In this document: positions 34,107 through 49,319 of the stretch, piece after piece
How the letters are laid out: each line of letters opens with the position of its first letter
Position numbering within the stretch: the first letter of the stretch is position 1
Source of the DNA: Treponema sp.
GTDB lineage: Bacteria > Spirochaetota > Spirochaetia > Treponematales > Breznakiellaceae
Direction: 5' to 3'
Assembly: GCA_009784975.1 (NCBI GenBank)
Contig: WQXG01000006.1
Span: 1-62,546 of the forward strand
Length of the DNA: 62,546 nucleotides
Made by a program: the position numbers and the translations under genes
Notes under the pieces: generated by a model
Database searches by the model: none
Seen by the model: only the letters and a program-made list of their open reading frames with translations
What the model was told of the DNA's origin: nothing

Positions 34107-35855
34107 TTAATTTTTCTGCCTTATTCTGATATGTACTTCCCGCAATTGCTGTTCCGTAACTTCACAGGGCGCTTCCATTAAAAGATCCTGCGCATTGCTG
34201 TTCATCGGGAGCGCTGTCACTTCGCGGATATTTTCTTCTTCTGCAAGCAGCATCACGATGCGGTCGATGCCCGGAGCCATGCCTGCATGAGGCGGTGCGC
34301 CGTAATGGAATGCGTTAAAAAGCGCCGGGAATTTATTTTCGATATTTGCCTGTGTGTAACCTGCTATTTCAAAAGCTTTTACCATTACTTCCGGCAAATG
34401 ATTACGAACAGCGCCTGATGAAAGTTCTACACCGTTGCAGACAATGTCATACTGCCATGCAAGAATATCCAGCGGGTTTTTTGTTTCCAGCGATTCAAGT
34501 CCGCCCTGCGGCATCGAGAAAGGATTGTGGGTAAATTCAATTACGCCGGTTTCTTCATTGATACCGTACATCGGGAAGTCTACGATAAAACAAAACTCGA
34601 ATTTGTTTTTGTTGGTCAGGTTTAATTGGGTGCCGAGCGCCGTCCGGATTTGCCCAGCAAGCCCGTTCACCGCTTTGGGAGAGTCTGCTATAAAAAACAA
34701 AGTGTCGTTATTCTGAAGCGACAGGTTTTTCCTGAGCTCGCCTTGTTTTTCTTCGCTAAGGAATTTAACAATGGGACCTTTAAGCGAACCGTCTTCCTGT
34801 ACGGAAATATAACCAAGCCCTTTCATGCCGATTTCTGTTGCATAGGCAAGCATTCTTTCAAAAAATGATTTAGACTGCTTTGCTGCCCCCGGAGCCTTTA
34901 TGCCGCGAACAGGAATGTTTTTAAAAGGCGCAAAATCCGCATCCGCAAAGAATTCGGTTAAGTCTTCGATAATCAGCGGGTTGCGGAGATCGGGTTTGTC
35001 CGTTCCGTATTTTAACATTGAATCTGCGTAAGTGATTCTGCGGAAAGGAGCGGGGCTTACCTCTTTGCCGGAGAATGCCTTGAATGTATCGTACAGCACC
35101 TTTTCTGCTGTGCCGAAAACATCTTCCTGCCCGGCGAAGGACATTTCAAAGTCCAGCTGGTAAAATTCTCCGGGGGAACGGTCTGCGCGGGAATCTTCGT
35201 CGCGGAAACACGGCGCAATCTGGAAATAACGGTCAAAGCCGGAAACCATCAATAACTGTTTGAAAATCTGCGGTGCCTGAGGAAGCGCGTAAAATTTGCC
35301 GTGATGTTTGCGGCTTGGAACAAGGTAGTCTCTTGCGCCTTCCGGAGAAGACGAAGTTAAAATCGGCGTTTGAAACTCTGTAAAACCAAGTTCCTGCATA
35401 CCTGTCCGCAAAAAGCTGATTATTTTTGCCCTTAACAGAATATTTTCTTTTACTGCGGGATTACGAAGATCAAGAAAACGGTTTTTTAACCTGACCTCTT
35501 CGCGTGTGTTTTTGGACTCGCTTATTTCAAACGGCAGGGCGCGGACGGCTTTACTCTGCATAACAACCGATTCGGAATGTACTTCTATAGTTCCTGTTTT
35601 AATCCTGGCGTTGACAGTTTCCGCATTCCGTTTTTTTACAGGACCGGAAACAGTAATAACGCTCTCCTTGCTGATTTGCCTTACCGAGTTTTCGTCATGC
35701 AGGACGATCTGTGTAATGCCGAATTGATCCCTTAGATCAATAAAAGTAACGCCGCCGTGGTCACGGATAGTATCCACCCAGCCCGATAGTTTAACGGTCT
35801 GTCCGACATGTTCTTCGCGCAATGCGCCGCAGGTATGTGTTCTATATTGGTTCAT
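34107..35855 (-). CDS. aspS: Aspartyl-tRNA synthetase, bacterial type
   Basis: The 582-residue enzyme has the N-terminal OB-fold anticodon domain (VKLSGWVDTIRDHGGVTFIDLRD, seen in two pieces), class II motif 2 (PCFRDEDSRADRSPGEFYQLD), the inserted GAD domain (about 285-410) and motif 3 (HAGMAPGIDRIVMLL). The bacterial type is often non-discriminating where a GatCAB amidotransferase exists, and gatCAB lies at 44-47 kb. Whether it is discriminating cannot be decided by eye. Length is normal. Confidence 0.97.
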   Translation of the reverse strand: MNQYRTHTCGALREEHVGQTVKLSGWVDTIRDHGGVTFIDLRDQFGITQIVLHDENSVRQISKESVITVSGPVKKRNAETVNARIKTGTIEVHSESVVMQSKAVRALPFEISESKNTREEVRLKNRFLDLRNPAVKENILLRAKIISFLRTGMQELGFTEFQTPILTSSSPEGARDYLVPSRKHHGKFYALPQAPQIFKQLLMVSGFDRYFQIAPCFRDEDSRADRSPGEFYQLDFEMSFAGQEDVFGTAEKVLYDTFKAFSGKEVSPAPFRRITYADSMLKYGTDKPDLRNPLIIEDLTEFFADADFAPFKNIPVRGIKAPGAAKQSKSFFERMLAYATEIGMKGLGYISVQEDGSLKGPIVKFLSEEKQGELRKNLSLQNNDTLFFIADSPKAVNGLAGQIRTALGTQLNLTNKNKFEFCFIVDFPMYGINEETGVIEFTHNPFSMPQGGLESLETKNPLDILAWQYDIVCNGVELSSGAVRNHLPEVMVKAFEIAGYTQANIENKFPALFNAFHYGAPPHAGMAPGIDRIVMLLAEEENIREVTALPMNSNAQDLLMEAPCEVTEQQLREVHIRIRQKN

Positions 35856-35893: not shown

Positions 35894-37126
35894 TTAATCC
35901 ATCCATAAAGAGGCGGTTGGGACGGCAAGCAGCCCATCTCCAAATGATAAGGTATCTTCGCCGGAATATAAAACAAGGGCATTATAACCTTTTTTACCTT
36001 TATAAATGTTTTCCCTGAACCATATTTGCGGCGAAAAATCTTCTTTTGATACGCTATGACTGGCTTTTACTTCAATCCCAACCATTGCTCCGTCATCGCG
36101 TTCTATTAAAAAATCAACCTCATGCTTTTTGTAATCCCTGTATTGATACAAACTGTATTCTCTGTTTAAATCAATATGCGCTGCCAATTCCTGAAAAACA
36201 AATGTTTCCATAAGTTTACCGGATCGATCTGAATCACGCATAATATCTTCTTTTTTCCAGCCCAAAATGGATGTCATAAAACCTGTATCATTAGCGTAAA
36301 ATTTAGCGCTTTTTCCTACCCTTTCGTAATCTGTACGCACCCAGGGATTTACTCTGTCAAAGACATACAGGGATTCCAGCGCATTTATATATGAGTCCAA
36401 TGTTTGTTTGGAAAGAGCCATTCCGGCGCCGATTTTTGCCGCATCCATAAATTTCCCCGACCAGCCTGCCAGTATCAATACAAGTTCTTTTAATTCATTC
36501 TGCCGCCTGATGTTCATGATGTCTTTTAAATCTCTGTTTAATAAATCGTTAATATAATCTATATGCCATTCTTTTCTGTCTTTATCGTTATCCAATTTTA
36601 CTGCTTCAGGATAACCGCCGCGAAAAGCAAGGTTAAATATTTGTTCTTTGTCAAACCCTGAAATTTTACGCGGAAAATCCATTGCAAACGCATGTTCCAG
36701 GAATTTGGGTTTTTTGTACAAAATCTCACCTGTTGTCAGAGGCCTAAGCCTAATCCGTTTATTCCGCCCTGCCATACTGTCTGTTATTATTGGCAGAGTT
36801 TGAAGATTTGCAGAACCTGTAATGCAAAACTGCCCCGGACGGTTGTTTTTATCTACAGCCAGCTTTATTTCCGGGATAAGGTTCGGTGCCTTCTGCACTT
36901 CGTCTATAAACATTGTACCGTCTGAATGTTTAATAAACCCCTTTGGATCTGATAATGCAGAGGTCAAAGTATTATTATCATCTAAAGACATAAAAATACT
37001 GTCTTTTTCCAGTACCTGGTTTAATAATGTTGTTTTCCCGGTTTGTCTTGCCCCGGTTAAGACCACCACCCTGCGTTTTTTTAGGGCGTTTTTTATACTT
37101 TCTGCCTGCCATCTGATAATTTCCAT
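35894..37126 (-). CDS. AAA ATPase with DUF4143 nuclease-like C-terminus
   Basis: The 410-residue protein has Walker A LTGARQTGKTTLLNQV (about 20-35), Walker B TMFIDEVQKAPNLIPEI (about 71-87) and a sensor-like CITGSANLQ. The C-terminal DUF4143 domain includes VDFLIERDDGAMVGIEVKAS, a D-X-ExK pattern of PD-(D/E)XK nucleases. These proteins occur widely in accessory regions and their role is unsettled. The ATG at 37126 was chosen because the longer frame starts in repeat DNA. A 46-bp tandem repeat lies just upstream. Confidence 0.85.
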   Translation of the reverse strand: MEIIRWQAESIKNALKKRRVVVLTGARQTGKTTLLNQVLEKDSIFMSLDDNNTLTSALSDPKGFIKHSDGTMFIDEVQKAPNLIPEIKLAVDKNNRPGQFCITGSANLQTLPIITDSMAGRNKRIRLRPLTTGEILYKKPKFLEHAFAMDFPRKISGFDKEQIFNLAFRGGYPEAVKLDNDKDRKEWHIDYINDLLNRDLKDIMNIRRQNELKELVLILAGWSGKFMDAAKIGAGMALSKQTLDSYINALESLYVFDRVNPWVRTDYERVGKSAKFYANDTGFMTSILGWKKEDIMRDSDRSGKLMETFVFQELAAHIDLNREYSLYQYRDYKKHEVDFLIERDDGAMVGIEVKASHSVSKEDFSPQIWFRENIYKGKKGYNALVLYSGEDTLSFGDGLLAVPTASLWMD

Positions 37127-37142
37127 AAAATAAGTATAATTC

Positions 37143-37250
37143 AACAGGGTAAAAAAGTAAAGTAAGATAGAGTAAATTAGCACAATAGAACAGGGTAAAA
37201 AAGCAAAGTAAAATAGGGCAAATTAACACAATAGAAACGGGTAAATTTGA
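37143..37250. repeat. 46-bp tandem repeat, about 2.3 copies
   Basis: Copies begin at 37143, 37189 and 37235 with AACAGGGTAAAAAAG, AACAGGGTAAAAAAG and the diverged AAACGGGTAAATTTG. The period is 46 bases. The repeat occupies the upstream region of both divergent genes (the ATPase and the DUF3592 protein), so copy number could change promoter spacing. Confidence 0.75.
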
Positions 37251-43226: not shown

Positions 43227-43556
43227 ATGAATGATATTTCCGGCATTAAACAGGAACTTGATGAAATAACCAAGGCAATCGCAGATTCTGTTCCTGTAGA
43301 GACTATCTATCTTTTCGGCTCTTATGCTTATGGAACGCCTCATAAGGACTCCGATTTGGACCTTTATATCGTTTTTAAAGATGATATGCCTATTCGTGAA
43401 CTTGATGCAATTCGTACTATTCGTAATGCAGTTTATCCTGTCAGTAAAAAACCGATTGATTTCCTTGGATTAAAGCAGAATCGTTTTCTTGACAGAAAAA
43501 TATACGCGACACTTGAACGTAAAATTGATAGAGAGGGTGTACGGCTATATGGGTAA
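43227..43556 (+). CDS. MNT-domain minimal nucleotidyltransferase
   Basis: The 109-residue protein has the nucleotidyltransferase signature YLFGSYAYGTPHKDSDLDLY (about 29-48) with GS and the DxD metal-binding pair, and the third acidic region near PIDFLGL. Such proteins pair with HEPN proteins as antitoxin/toxin modules, the MNT enzyme modifying or neutralising the HEPN partner. The overlapping next gene is a HEPN protein, which supports that. There is no clear ribosome binding site. Confidence 0.88.
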   Translation: MNDISGIKQELDEITKAIADSVPVETIYLFGSYAYGTPHKDSDLDLYIVFKDDMPIRELDAIRTIRNAVYPVSKKPIDFLGLKQNRFLDRKIYATLERKIDREGVRLYG

Positions 43557-43971
43557 AAGTGAAATACTGCAACAATGGTTGGATAAAGGAAATGACGATT
43601 TAAGGTCGGCAGAATATCTTTCTACAATGCATCACCCCACACCTGACGAAATAATTTGTTATCATTGCCAACAATCCTCAGAAAAATACTTGAAAGGTTT
43701 TTTGTTTTTGCATGATATAGAGCCGCCGCAAATACATAAATTGATAGAACTTTTAGGGATGTGCGGGTTGATAGATAGTAGTTTTTCTGTTTTATTGCCC
43801 CAACTGAATGTATTGACAGATTATGGTGTTCTTCCCCGTTATCCAAACGAACTCGGAATTACTAATGATGATATGAAGATTGCAATCAAATATGCGAAAA
43901 TCGTACAGGAATTCGTTTTGAAAGCAATTGATGAAAAAGCGAAAAGTGAAGGAACATTAGAAAACAATTAA
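43549..43971 (+). CDS. HEPN-domain protein, partner of MNT
   Basis: The 140-residue helical protein contains the PF05168-type HEPN core ICYHCQQSSEKYLKGFLFLH (about 42-61) and the later PPQIHKLIELLGMCG. The ATG at 43549 overlaps the MNT gene by eight bases; the longer frame upstream is not needed. HEPN proteins of this pair are often RNases whose action is blocked by the MNT partner. A clear Rx4-6H catalytic motif is not evident, so it may be a less active or differently acting member. Confidence 0.85.
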   Translation: MGKSEILQQWLDKGNDDLRSAEYLSTMHHPTPDEIICYHCQQSSEKYLKGFLFLHDIEPPQIHKLIELLGMCGLIDSSFSVLLPQLNVLTDYGVLPRYPNELGITNDDMKIAIKYAKIVQEFVLKAIDEKAKSEGTLENN

Positions 43972-44261: not shown

Positions 44262-45680
44262 TTAATTTAACATTTCTTCAAGTTTAATCTTAACAAGCTC
44301 AGGATTAGCACCCTTACCAATCTTCTTCATCACCATCCCCATCAAAAACCCAAAAACCTTTTCCTTCCCCGCGCGGTAATCCGCAACAGAAGATTGATTT
44401 TCTGCGATAACGGCTTGTATGGCTTCGATAACGGCGTTGTCATCGCTGACCATCATAAGCCCTTTTTCGGCAATGTAGCTTTCCGGGTCAATGTTGTTTG
44501 TGAAAACCGCTTCTATAGTTTCCTTGTATGCGCTGCGGTTGATTTTTCCGCCGGTGACCAAAGTGATAAGTACGGATAATTTTGCGGCATCAATTGAAAA
44601 GTTTTCCGGCAGAATGTTTGCATTGTTCATCAGGCGCATTATTTCGCCGGTTATAAGGTTTGCTGTTTCAAGAGGCTGACCGCTTTTTTGCGACAGGGTT
44701 TCAAATAAATTGGAAATGTTTTTGTGGACGGTAAGAACAATAGCAGCAGATTCAGTTATTCCCAAATCGCGGACATAGCGTTCGCGTTTTTGATGCGCAA
44801 GTTCAGGGAGAGCTGCTTTTACGGTTTCCAGCCAGGCATCGTCTATGCTGATTGGCGGTAAATCGGGATCGGGAAAGTAGCGGTAATCCTGCGCGTCTTC
44901 TTTTGAACGCATTCCGTACGAGATGCCTTTTTCATCGTCCCAGCGGCGTGTTTCCTGAAAAATCTGGCCGCCGTCTTCGAGAATTTCCATTTGACGTTCA
45001 GTCTCGTATTCTATAGCGCGCGTTATCGCCTTGAATGAGTTCATGTTTTTTGTTTCTGTGCGTACGCCGAGTTCGCCGCCAAATTGGCGTATGGACAGGT
45101 TGATGTCTGCGCGGATGGAACCTTCCTGCATTTTGCCGTCGCATATTTCCAGATACAAAAGTGTTTCGCGTAATTTTTCCAGATAGGCGATAACTTCGGC
45201 TGCGTTTCTAAAATCCGGCTGCGAGACGATTTCCAAAAGCGGGATGCCGCAGCGGTTAAAGTCCATGAATGTGCCGCCGGTTGTGTGGACAAGTTTGCCG
45301 GCATCTTCTTCCATGTGTATCTGGCGAATGCCGATTTTCTTTTTCTTTCCTTCTGTTTCTATTTCCAGATACCCGTTGCGGCAGATTGGAGCGTACAGCT
45401 GGGATATCTGATAAGCATTCGGCAGATCGGGATAAAAATAATTTTTACGGTCGAATTTACTGAGTCTTGTAATTTCGCAGTTTAACGCAATGCCGAGTTT
45501 CATTGCATATTCCAGTACAGCGCGGTTTAACACCGGCAGTGCGCCCGGCATTCCGCAGCAGCCCGGGCAGACGTGGGTATTCGGTTCCGAACCAAAAGCG
45601 GCGGAACAGCCGCAGAAGATTTTTGATTTTGTGGAAAGTTCAGCGTGAACTTCAAGTCCCAGTACTGTTTCCCATTTCAT
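44262..45680 (-). CDS. gatB: Aspartyl/glutamyl-tRNA amidotransferase subunit B
   Basis: GatB activates the misacylated Asp-tRNA(Asn) or Glu-tRNA(Gln) with ATP and transfers ammonia to it. The 472-residue protein has the conserved start WETVLGLEVHAELST, the FCGCS and CPGCCGMPGALPVLN zinc-site region, FDRKNYFYPDLPNAYQISQ, IHMEEDAGKLVH and a YqeY-like C-terminal tail (about 320-472). It looks complete. It is third in the gatC-gatA-gatB operon and overlaps gatA by four bases (ATGA). Confidence 0.97.
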   Translation of the reverse strand: MKWETVLGLEVHAELSTKSKIFCGCSAAFGSEPNTHVCPGCCGMPGALPVLNRAVLEYAMKLGIALNCEITRLSKFDRKNYFYPDLPNAYQISQLYAPICRNGYLEIETEGKKKKIGIRQIHMEEDAGKLVHTTGGTFMDFNRCGIPLLEIVSQPDFRNAAEVIAYLEKLRETLLYLEICDGKMQEGSIRADINLSIRQFGGELGVRTETKNMNSFKAITRAIEYETERQMEILEDGGQIFQETRRWDDEKGISYGMRSKEDAQDYRYFPDPDLPPISIDDAWLETVKAALPELAHQKRERYVRDLGITESAAIVLTVHKNISNLFETLSQKSGQPLETANLITGEIMRLMNNANILPENFSIDAAKLSVLITLVTGGKINRSAYKETIEAVFTNNIDPESYIAEKGLMMVSDDNAVIEAIQAVIAENQSSVADYRAGKEKVFGFLMGMVMKKIGKGANPELVKIKLEEMLN

Positions 45681-46876
45681 GAGAGCACCCCCTGATAAAT
45701 CTGCGCAGCGCCGATTAGTTTGTTTTCACAGAAAGCATCTCCAATTAACTGAAAACCATTTTGACCGTCAGGAAGTATCACAGCGGGAAGACCTGTCAGG
45801 TTTACGGAGATTGTGTTAACAGGAGAAAGAATTAAATCAAAACGTTCAAATAATTTTTTGTAAGCTTCTCTTACAAGGGTGCGGATTTGCAGGGCTTTTT
45901 TAAAATAGGCGTCATAGTTGTCCGATGAAAGAACAAAAGAACCCAGCATTATTTTTCTTTTTATATTCAGCCCGAAACCTTCGCTCCTGGAAAGCCTGTA
46001 AACTTCGGAAAGCGTTTTGGCGTTGGCGCTGCGATACCCGAATTTTAATCCGTCGTATTTAGCAAGATTGGAAGATGTTTCGGCAGCTTCGATAATTGTA
46101 TATGCAGGAAATATATAGTCTGCAAGAGGCATATCAAATTCTTCGATTGAGCATCCTGCTACTTTGAATTTTTTCGCCGCTGCATTTACAGCGTCTTTGT
46201 CCTGATACGGTACGCCAATTCGCAGGTTTTTTATTTCTGTGCTGGTAAAATTAAAAGGTTTTTTGATAACGCAGGTACTGTCTCTGTTATCCGGTCCTGA
46301 TACGATCGACAGCAAGGCGGCGCAGTCTTCGATGTTTTGCCCCATTACGCCTGTTTGTTCAAGAGACGATGAGATTGATATTATTCCGTATCTTGATACT
46401 GAACCGTATGTGGGTTTAATGGCAGTTAAGCCGCAGTATGATTTTATGCTGCCAAGCGCAAGACCTTGCAGACCGGGGCTGCCTGCTGAACACGAGTCCC
46501 CGGAATCAAATTCATCCATGTTGAGTTTACCTGCTATGATAAGACCAGCTTGTTCCAGTTTTTCTACAACTGCGGCGCTGAACACAGGTATGTAATCACC
46601 TAACATTTTTGACGCGCAAGTTGTTTTAATTCCCATTGTGGAAATATTGTCTTTTAAGGCAACCGGCATTCCGGCAAGAGGCGAAAGTGTTTCTCCTTTA
46701 TCAATACGAGACTGCAACTCCCGCGCGCGTTCAAGGGCAGTTTCCTTTAATATTGATATATAGGCGCTTGCCTGAATCTTTTCCAGATAATCGCCGATAA
46801 CTTCCGTCACACTCAGTTTTTTTTCTCTGATTGCCGCTGCTGTTTTTAAAGCGCTTTTTTCCTGCAGAATTTCCAT
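45677..46876 (-). CDS. gatA: GatA-like subunit lacking the amidase signature
   Basis: GatA normally hydrolyses glutamine with a Ser-cisSer-Lys triad. This 399-residue copy is about 80 residues shorter than usual (about 480). The Lys region PLAGMPVALKDN is present. Between MDEFDSGDS and YCGLTAIKPTYG there are only 19 residues, where a normal GatA has about 55 containing GGSSGGSAA and DTGGSIRQP. A second block of about 25 residues before NLTGLPAVILP is also missing. The frame stays open and the rest is well conserved (SRYGIISISSSLEQTG, SEGFGLNIKRKIMLG). So two of three catalytic residues appear lost. It may be a structural subunit with ammonia from elsewhere, or an assembly error could be involved. 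Confidence 0.85.
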   Translation of the reverse strand: MEILQEKSALKTAAAIREKKLSVTEVIGDYLEKIQASAYISILKETALERARELQSRIDKGETLSPLAGMPVALKDNISTMGIKTTCASKMLGDYIPVFSAAVVEKLEQAGLIIAGKLNMDEFDSGDSCSAGSPGLQGLALGSIKSYCGLTAIKPTYGSVSRYGIISISSSLEQTGVMGQNIEDCAALLSIVSGPDNRDSTCVIKKPFNFTSTEIKNLRIGVPYQDKDAVNAAAKKFKVAGCSIEEFDMPLADYIFPAYTIIEAAETSSNLAKYDGLKFGYRSANAKTLSEVYRLSRSEGFGLNIKRKIMLGSFVLSSDNYDAYFKKALQIRTLVREAYKKLFERFDLILSPVNTISVNLTGLPAVILPDGQNGFQLIGDAFCENKLIGAAQIYQGVLS

Positions 46877-46878
46877 AT

Positions 46879-47193
46879 TTACTCCACCGTTTTCGGCGCC
46901 ATGAAAAATTCGTCATTTTTAACCGGCGCGTTTTTTAATATCAGGCTGCGGTCCAAAGAAGGGCACACATCATCTTCCCTAAAAACATTTACATCATCAA
47001 AAGGAGAGCTGCATTCGCGGGTGTCCCCGCGCAGCACATTTTCGGTACCCTGGGGCTTCCCCAGCTCTTTTATCCGGGATATATCAATCAAAGTTTTTTG
47101 AAAGTCTTCTGTCATGCTTTTTTTTTCGCTTTCGGACAGAGTAAGGCAGGATAAGTTTTCCAGATACGAAATTAATTTGTCATCTACTTGCAT
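46879..47193 (-). CDS. gatC: Aspartyl/glutamyl-tRNA amidotransferase subunit C
   Basis: GatC is the small belt-like subunit that wraps around GatA and GatB. The 104-residue product shows the family N-terminus (DDKLISYLENLSCLTLSESE then FQKTLIDISRIKEL) and the conserved LRGDTRECSSPFDDVNVFRE-type segment, ending in a variant of the usual FFxVPK tail (EFFMAPKTVE). It is first in the operon, two bases before gatA. A ribosome binding site AAGGAG lies upstream. Confidence 0.9.
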   Translation of the reverse strand: MQVDDKLISYLENLSCLTLSESEKKSMTEDFQKTLIDISRIKELGKPQGTENVLRGDTRECSSPFDDVNVFREDDVCPSLDRSLILKNAPVKNDEFFMAPKTVE

Positions 47194-47210: not shown

Positions 47211-49319
47211 TTATATTACACTGTACAGTATTTCCGCATAAGTTGGGATAGGCCAGTGTTTTCCGGCTACAAGCATTTCCAGTTCGTCCGCTGTTAACCG
47301 CAGTTCTGTCATGGCTGTAATAATTCTGTCGCGGCAGAATAATCCCCGCAAAAGAATTTCCTGCTGTTCTCCGGAACGTTGTTCCGGAAATTCCGCGGCG
47401 GCTTTTTCCAGAGCTGTTAATTTTTTTAACAGGTTAGCAGACAGCAATGTAATGTTTTTTAGAAAATGTTCTTCCAGAGAAACATCAAAACCGCCGTATG
47501 CTTTTTTTTGCCGGAAAAGGTCGATTAATTCCGACTGATAATCGAAACATGCCGGAATTATTTTGCCTTTTGTCATATCTATCATTGTAAGAGCTTCGAT
47601 ATAGAGCGTTTTGCAGTAAGCGTCCAGCAAAATTTCATAGCGTGAATTGAGTTCCATTTCTGTAAATACATTGTGCCGGGAAAATAAATCTATGCTTTTT
47701 TTGGAAATTAATTCCGGCAGCGCATCAACTGTGGTTTTTAAATTTGATAATCCGCGTTTTTCCGCTTCTTCTATCCATTCTTTGGAATAGTTGTTGCCGT
47801 TAAAAATAATCCGTTTATGTTCACTGAATGTTTTTTTGATAAGCGCCGCAAGGTCTGCTGTAAATGTTTTTGAATTTGTTAATGTATCTGCGAATTGACG
47901 CAGTGCTTCTGCGATAATTGTATTAAGTATGATATTGGGTCCTGCAATTGAAAACGACGAGCCGAGCATACGGAATTCAAACTTGTTGCCGGTAAATGCA
48001 AAAGGAGATGTACGGTTTCTGTCTGTTAAATCTTTTGGGAAGTGCGGCAATACCGTTACGCCAATTTCCATAGGGTGTTTTTCCTTGCCTTTGTAGCTCT
48101 TGCCGGATTCAATGGCTTCAAATATTTCCATCAATTCATCGCCAATGAACATTGAAATGATGGCAGGAGGCGCTTCATTCGCGCCAAGCCTGTGATCGTT
48201 TGCCGCGCTTGCCGCAGAAATACGCATTAAATCCTGGTACTCGTCTGCAGCTTTTATTACTGTAACAAGGAACAAAAGAAACTGCGCGTTATCGTGCGGT
48301 GTTTCGCCGGGTTCAAGCAGGTTTATGCCGGTGTCTGTGCTGATAGACCAGTTATTATGTTTGCCGCTGCCGCTGACGCCTGCAAAAGGTTTTTCATGGA
48401 GCAGACAGGCAAGACCATGTTTGTTTGCGATAGTTTTCATCAGTTCCATTGTTAACTGGTTGTGATCTGTTGCGATATTTACTGTGGAAAAGACCAGGGC
48501 AAGCTCATGCTGTGCCGGAGCTGTTTCATTGTGTTTTGTTTTTGCATAAACGCCGAGCTTCCAGAGTTCTTCATCAAGCTCTTTCATGAATGCGGAAATT
48601 CTTGGTTTTATGCAGCCAAAATAATGATCTTCAAGTTCCTGCCCCTTGGGCGGACGCGCGCCGAAGAGAGTTCTTCCCGTGTAGATTAAATCCGGGCGCT
48701 GCAGAAATATTTCTTTATCAATCAGAAAATATTCCTGTTCGGGACCGGCGGTTGTAAAGACGCGTTTTGCGCTTGTATTGCCGAACAGCTTGAGTATCCG
48801 CAAAGCCTGCTTTTCAATCGCTTCCATGGAGCGAAGAAGAGGCGTCTTCATATCCAGCGCTTCTCCGGAGTATGAACAAAAAGCAGTGGGAATACAAAGT
48901 GTTCCGTCTTTGATAAATGCATACGAAGTCGTATCCCAGACAGTGTAACCTCTTGCTTCAAAAGTAGCGCGTAATCCGCCGGACGGAAAGCTGGATGCAT
49001 CCGGCTCTCCGCGGATCAGTTCCTTTCCGGAAAATTCCAGAATTACCCTGCCGTCTAATCCCGCGGGAGAAATAAAGCTATCGTGTTTTTCCGCTGTAGT
49101 TCCTGTCATCGGCTGAAACCAGTGCGTATAATGGGTAGCGCCTTTTCCTACAGCCCATTCTTTCATGGCATTTGCAACCTCATTCGCAATATCCAGTCCC
49201 AGATTTTTACCTTGCGATATTGTTTCTTTTAAAGCTGAATAAACACTTTTGGGCAGATATGCCTGCATAACCGCATCATTAAAGACCATGCTTCCAAACA
49301 AGTTCGCTATATCCTTCAT
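47211..49319 (-). CDS. glnN: Type III glutamine synthetase
   Basis: This cytosolic enzyme makes glutamine from glutamate, ammonia and ATP. The 702-residue length and motifs [39 protein letters not shown] and [18 protein letters not shown] identify the GSIII (GlnN) type, found in Bacteroidetes, cyanobacteria and some spirochaetes. It lies upstream of gatC with a 17-base gap, so the glutamine producer and the glutamine-using GatCAB may share a transcript. A terminator-like hairpin precedes its start. Confidence 0.96.

Follow-up and report, generated by a model that had tools for sequence, protein, structure and literature searches.

The gatA gene of a 62,546-nucleotide contig from Treponema sp. 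(Breznakiellaceae; GenBank assembly GCA_009784975.1, contig WQXG01000006.1; the whole contig is referred to here as the window) encodes a GatA, the amidase subunit of the tRNA-dependent amidotransferase GatCAB, and the loss of its glutaminase site is well supported by alignment. We consider it rather probable that the complex takes part in a tRNA-dependent asparagine pathway that is fed by free ammonia and in which a catalytically dead GatA serves as a scaffold. Genomes, contigs and loci are given below under our own labels (G, C and L numbers).

The window gatA (45677..46876, minus strand) is an open frame of 399 amino acids. Its product matches the amidase family PF01425 with 243 bits in two stretches (cut-off 27), and the gatA equivalog TIGR00132, again in two stretches, with 326.8 bits, which is below the curated cut-off of 481.1, but this is still the best-fitting model. 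An earlier note, made from the sequence of the window, had described a GatA without its amidase signature that is interrupted by in-frame gaps, and alignment with relatives bears this out. Neither GGSSGG nor DTGGS was found in the window GatA sequence, and two intact relatives place gaps of 26 residues after residue 123 and 8 residues after residue 145, so that both catalytic serines are gone from the resulting scar (residues 120-149; 46430..46519, minus strand). The gaps that the note had reported are real, and only their lengths need correction: the spacing between MDEFDSGDS and YCGLTAIKPTYG is 18 residues, not 19, and the C-terminal gap is 23 residues, not 25. This second scar (45797..45832, minus strand) follows residue 354 and has removed the position of the aspartate that binds the glutamine amide (Staphylococcus aureus D425, yeast D418). 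Smaller internal gaps of 5, 2-3, 9 and 6 residues are seen against the same two relatives, and every gap leaves the frame intact. By alignment, the catalytic lysine position (S. aureus K79) is retained as Lys75 (46652..46654, minus strand) in the ALKDN region, in agreement with the note, and Lys308 (45953..45955, minus strand) stands at the position of the arginine that binds the glutamine carboxyl group (S. aureus R358, yeast R334).

As a yardstick for the glutaminase site we used five residues of S. aureus GatA, K79, S154, S178, R358 and D425, the last two being the yeast binding residues R334 and D418 given in the accessible part of PMC4027206 and converted by us to S. aureus numbering. The window GatA keeps one of the five: the lysine of the Ser-cisSer-Lys triad is present and both serine positions are lost, and of the glutamine-binding pair the arginine is replaced by lysine and the aspartate position is deleted. 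Since the triad, the glutamine-binding residues and a score above the curated cut-off are all lacking, the gene is best annotated as a GatA-like structural subunit.

The shortened protein is nevertheless predicted to keep the GatA fold. In its structural model, the predicted local distance difference test score (pLDDT) falls below 50 over three or more residues only at 121-135, that is, inside the signature scar, and the structural matches of the model include the transamidosome structures 3kfu and 4wj3. The other two subunits look normal, as the earlier note had it: gatB (44262..45680, minus strand; 472 amino acids), which overlaps gatA by 4 bases, and gatC (46879..47193, minus strand; 104 amino acids) both exceed their family cut-offs, and the three genes overlap or nearly touch in the order gatC-gatA-gatB, with GatB and GatC intact in the same operon. 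It is scarcely credible that the signature was lost through faulty assembly or binning: the genome is a draft in 73 contigs, but the gaps are several and separate, none changes the frame, and comparable lesions arose elsewhere by substitution as well as by deletion.

No other amidase-signature (PF01425) gene was found in the 2.60-Mb genome, which is 95% complete in its 73 contigs. The suggestion in the earlier note that ammonia comes from another amidase is therefore not borne out. A second intact gatA serving the complex, which the note had named among the findings that would overturn its reading, was also looked for in the genome, of which about 5% may be missing, and none was found. It is in any case very unlikely that GatB receives ammonia in trans from a separate glutaminase or asparaginase. 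Such a supply would be physically possible if the GatB site were open to a partner, but a second amidase-signature gene was not found, the window proteins that were scanned (not all frames) include no glutaminase, in a scan that did not extend to stand-alone glutaminases or asparaginases, and the other glutaminases of the genome are themselves damaged or were not found (see below).

Recurrence of GatA lesions and constraint on the operon

Searches with the GatA protein gave matches in 36 of 39 genomes of the genus and, family-wide, in 35 of 195 genomes at 1e-40, 31 of those 35 in this genus. Four named records were added, all of them Treponema metagenome-assembled genomes whose isolate names suggest a termite-gut origin. 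Forty GatAs could be read at every one of the five positions. Of these, 35 come from the genus and 5 from four other genomes of the family; G005, G021 and G025 (in which contig ends cut site positions), repeat loci of a single gene, the second copy in G015 (which matches the first completely along its length) and locus L281 of G003 (an amidase that lacks the GatA pattern) had been removed. Some of the 40, such as that of G022, are cut at one end yet readable at the five positions, and in G001 the serine region is not aligned with certainty.

All five residues are present in 20 of these 40 GatAs; the other 20 lack at least one, and 16 lack part of the triad. The lesions take several forms. The cis-serine has been removed by a three-residue deletion in G006, G007, G011 and G022, and triad residues have been substituted in G008 (Ser to Asn), G011 (Ser to Tyr), G004 (Lys to Ser), G024 (Lys to Arg) and the second gatA copy of G002 (Lys to Met plus Ser to Gly). 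Longer deletions are found in G000, G010, G189 and G191, and in G012, G013, G034 and G038 the triad is kept but a glutamine-binding residue is gone. Erosion is present in both GatCAB types, which share 37-43% identity in GatB, and on a GatB tree loss from the triad needs at least eight changes; 13 of the 34 inner branches of this tree are weak, and treating loss as irreversible would raise such counts. An intact and an eroded gatA occur together in G191 (L284, L288), G002 (L019, L067) and G003 (L026, L280).

In related pairs, what remains of the eroded gatA genes is constrained, and so is gatB. The ratio of nonsynonymous to synonymous substitution (dN/dS) for eroded gatA is 0.16 in the pair G006/G010, which have a lesion in common, and 0.15 in the pair G024/G026, indicating purifying selection. 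The window GatB keeps 115 of 115 invariant positions, and in eroded main-type operons of the genus 0 to 2 of the 115 are changed (5 in G038). Such conservation is hard to reconcile with a GatCAB that no longer amidates and acts as a docking scaffold for the second aspartyl-tRNA synthetase (AspRS2) and tRNA-Asn, or in some reaction not yet known: transamidosome structures such as 3kfu and 4wj3 show that docking of this kind has precedents, but a purely structural role would hardly require every invariant position of GatB, and we regard this explanation as highly improbable.

The alternative that deserves most attention, although we think it unlikely, is that GatCAB is a relic. Glutaminyl- and asparaginyl-tRNA synthetases (GlnRS and AsnRS) would charge both tRNAs, asparagine would come from outside, and gatA would decay first, its site being the least constrained. 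Consistent with this idea, dN/dS is higher for GatA than for GatB in the eroded pairs, the eroded gatA of G185 contains a stop, and change extends beyond the glutaminase site to 14.5% of the other invariant GatA positions in the 20 eroded proteins. Against it, 19 of the 20 eroded gatAs are open, their dN/dS is low in both pairs, and the GatBs of eroded main-type operons are almost unchanged. In addition, the 20 proteins have a change or a gap at 31% of the signature positions other than the two serines, compared with the 14.5% elsewhere, in a set that was itself selected by loss at the five positions.

Asparagine supply and the gatCAB neighbourhood

The window genome contains both GlnRS (661.6 bits) and AsnRS (621.0 bits), and across the genus 33 of the 39 genomes have a GlnRS and 30 an AsnRS that exceeds the cut-off, a distribution that also suits a relic. 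AsnA is present in 10 of the 39 genomes and was not found in that of the window, although at 95% completeness this absence is not final. Three PF00733 matches in the window genome were considered as AsnB and proved to be MnmA, GuaA and NadE. With GlnRS and AsnRS present and no asparagine synthetase found, the cell probably makes its asparagine by way of GatCAB and a second AspRS, as judged from gene content. AsnA, which would have freed GatCAB from this task, was found in 7 of the 18 genomes that have an intact GatA and in 1 of the 15 whose GatA is eroded throughout; its rarity alongside eroded GatA fits poorly with AsnA having made GatCAB superfluous, and so with a relic.

In Deinococcus and Thermus the same set of GlnRS, AsnRS and GatCAB characterizes the tRNA-dependent route to asparagine, with Bdellovibrio close to it, according to the accessible part of PMC4206432, and an AspS2-GatCAB route has been inferred for Endomicrobia of termite guts in the portion of PMC11257099 available. 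In the window, aspS2 (34107..35855, minus strand), encoding the second, bacterial-type AspRS, lies 8.4 kb from gatB. In the named record L034 and in G022, G028, G036, G190 and G191, a second AspRS gene comes immediately or shortly after gatB, and the two genes are 1.7 kb apart in G007 and 3.9 kb apart in G010. For both AspRSs of the window genome the bacterial model fits best, and their scores are under the aspS_nondisc cut-off. The tRNA-Asn of such a route would carry U1-A72; no tRNA genes were found in the window.

A type III glutamine synthetase gene (47211..49319, minus strand) lies directly upstream of gatC. The earlier note had taken this neighbour as support for an ammonia-fed GatB, an argument that is unsupported or not needed: the enzyme makes glutamine from ammonia, and the gene is also located beyond aspS2 in G006, G010 and G011. 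The stretch between gatB and aspS2 contains a nucleotidyltransferase and HEPN gene pair (43227-43971, plus strand), possibly a toxin-antitoxin pair, and a gene for an AAA_14/DUF4143 ATPase (35894-37183, minus strand) that adjoins aspS2.

Other glutamine amidotransferases

GatA is one of several enzymes of this genome with a damaged or missing glutaminase. CarA (contig C51, L123:907-2043) has GIGLGN and YPE where conventional relatives have GICxGH and HPE, so that the cysteine is replaced by glycine and the histidine by tyrosine; across the genus, glycine stands for cysteine in 12 of 15 CarA sequences of this type and the cysteine is kept in 3. The GMP synthetase (contig C64, L107:1165-2331) is a 389-amino-acid protein without the N-terminal glutamine amidotransferase (GATase) domain. 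A PF00117 search of the genome found two domains, those of CarA and PyrG, and no separate GATase subunit gene for GMP synthetase. GuaA without GATase occurs in 13 genomes including that of the window; one of these is a fragment, and G002 also has a long form. GuaA length is unsettled in G004, G038, G009, G016, G018 and G035, and the count leaves aside a 325-amino-acid GuaA frame without GATase in G001 (about 100 bases upstream are covered) and short PF00733 frames of G020 and G030. In PyrG, the CTP synthase, the nucleophilic cysteine has become serine (three cases) or asparagine (one) in G003, G006, G022 and G034 (L226, L218, L222 and L225).

No match to the glmS model was found in the window genome, a model that elsewhere also catches PurF-like proteins, and full-length or nearly full-length GlmS is present in 12 of the 39 genomes. 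Nor did the window genome contain GATase_6, for which the control was positive in 14 of 14 genomes; the search did not include GATase_2 and GATase_7. It may be added that no GlmS was found in the window genome to account for the glucosamine supply of the cell wall.

Loss in GatA goes together with loss of the GuaA GATase (12 of 13 rows compared with 1 of 12; G002 left out; raw Fisher 3e-5, ancestry ignored) and with absence of GlmS, counted only in genomes listed as at least 80% complete (11 of 13 compared with 4 of 15; raw Fisher 0.003, ancestry ignored). Phylogenetic pairs for GatA and GlmS were mostly uninformative, and shared ancestry may explain both associations.

A proposed route fed by free ammonia

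In the pathway that we favor, AspRS2 (or AspRS1) would load aspartate onto tRNA-Asn, and GatB, shaped by GatA and GatC, would activate the aspartate side chain with ATP and amidate it with free ambient ammonia, not with ammonia channelled from glutamine. The cell, for which no asparagine synthetase was found, would obtain its asparagine in this way. GatA would be a catalytically dead structural subunit. Activity of the complex, its use of ammonia as donor and Asn-tRNA-Asn as its product are inferred. GatB normally receives ammonia through a tunnel from GatA; as reported in the part of PMC4027206 that is accessible, yeast GatFAB has been assayed with NH4Cl, and a truncation lowered glutaminase activity and raised the use of NH4Cl. 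Termite-gut prokaryotes are said to break uric acid down to ammonia, an important nitrogen source in that habitat (PMC9137090, in part), and the source spirochaete is probably from a termite gut. Where ammonia is plentiful, a glutaminase and a channel would be worth little, and GatA as a partner and GatB as an enzyme would still be under selection.

The earlier note had already proposed a scaffold GatA with an ammonia-fed GatB. This remains the best-supported reading, as suggested by the recurrence of comparable lesions, the constraint on the rest of the operon, the intact predicted fold and the damage to other glutaminases of the genome; the presence of GlnRS and AsnRS, the recurrence and the other damaged enzymes are additions to what the note contained. 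On a wider scale, we put at about even the chances that a lineage of termite-gut spirochaetes has been turning from glutamine to free ammonia as the nitrogen donor for biosynthesis, losing glutaminase sites repeatedly and enzyme by enzyme, and GlmS outright, so that glutamine amidotransferases became plain ammonia ligases. In such a trend the glutaminase halves (GatA, CarA, GuaA and PyrG) would be dismantled, with GlmS often absent, and the synthetase halves kept.

Several observations weigh against these proposals. Loss of any of the five GatA residues needs at least six changes on the GatB tree, which is few. The GatA of G185, a genome outside the genus (C42:7311-8306), has lost every one of the five site residues and is interrupted by an in-frame TGA, as in a decaying gene. 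Divergent-type GatBs have 7 to 16 changed invariant positions, and when gaps are excluded the change in the GatA signature is 17.5% compared with 11.6% elsewhere, a modest concentration. The two AspRSs have the same histidine (RNHGG and RDHGG) after the R-N/D motif, a residue that we take to bear on tRNA discrimination, and it is thus no help in telling which enzyme mischarges tRNA-Asn. The window-genome PyrG keeps its cysteine and histidine, the PyrG cysteine is kept in 29 of 33 rows, and the N-terminal cysteine is present in 12 of 14 PurF-like loci (the other two are not readable there, and none comes from the window genome); any switch to ammonia is therefore not total. Finally, only three pairs are phylogenetically independent, and the link between GatA and GuaA is thus not established.

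The window complex resembles the bacterial GatCABs of S. aureus (2df4) and Aquifex aeolicus (3h0l) in its gatC-gatA-gatB operon, its GatB and GatC family matches and its predicted GatA fold, but differs from them in having neither Ser-cisSer nor the glutamine-binding arginine and aspartate and in its length of 399 rather than about 480 residues. The accessible part of PMC4206432 indicates that Deinococcus/Thermus and Bdellovibrio likewise combine GlnRS, AsnRS and GatCAB with no AsnA or AsnB found, and Deinococcus has a second AspRS. That AspRS is archaeal-type, whereas the one described here is bacterial-type and gatCAB-linked in relatives, and the GatA glutaminase is lost here. The Endomicrobia of termite guts also have AspS2 and GatCAB without AsnAB, a likeness at the level of gene sets; GatA glutaminase loss is not mentioned in the accessible text of PMC11257099. 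Precedents for ammonia use are known in other enzymes. Ammonia-only NAD synthetase and the archaeal GMP synthetase subunit consist of the synthetase part alone, as does the GuaA described here, which differs in being bacterial and in having fused counterparts in related bacteria. In carbamoyl phosphate synthetase I the catalytic cysteine is replaced; the CarA described here differs in being bacterial and in having glycine for cysteine and tyrosine for histidine. Both keep the glutaminase domain, as far as the available part of PMC4655335 describes the ammonia-dependent enzyme.

In a partly covered and mostly non-subscription literature, we found no account of a treponeme GatCAB, of a natural glutaminase-less GatA or of glutaminase loss in termite treponemes. 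That GatA has naturally and repeatedly lost its glutaminase in complexes that are otherwise retained, alongside other damaged glutaminases in one lineage, thus seems to be new. It carries a warning for annotation, because the gene would take the name of a family whose catalytic residues are missing here. Amidotransferases usually pair a glutaminase with a synthetase, and a genus that has repeatedly lost the former, with intact relatives at hand, provides a natural experiment on why that coupling is kept, on the roles of GatA beyond the cutting of glutamine and on microbial adaptation to a probably ammonia-rich niche. Overall, the data suggest that free ammonia serves these bacteria as the starting material for asparagine and probably for other molecules as well.
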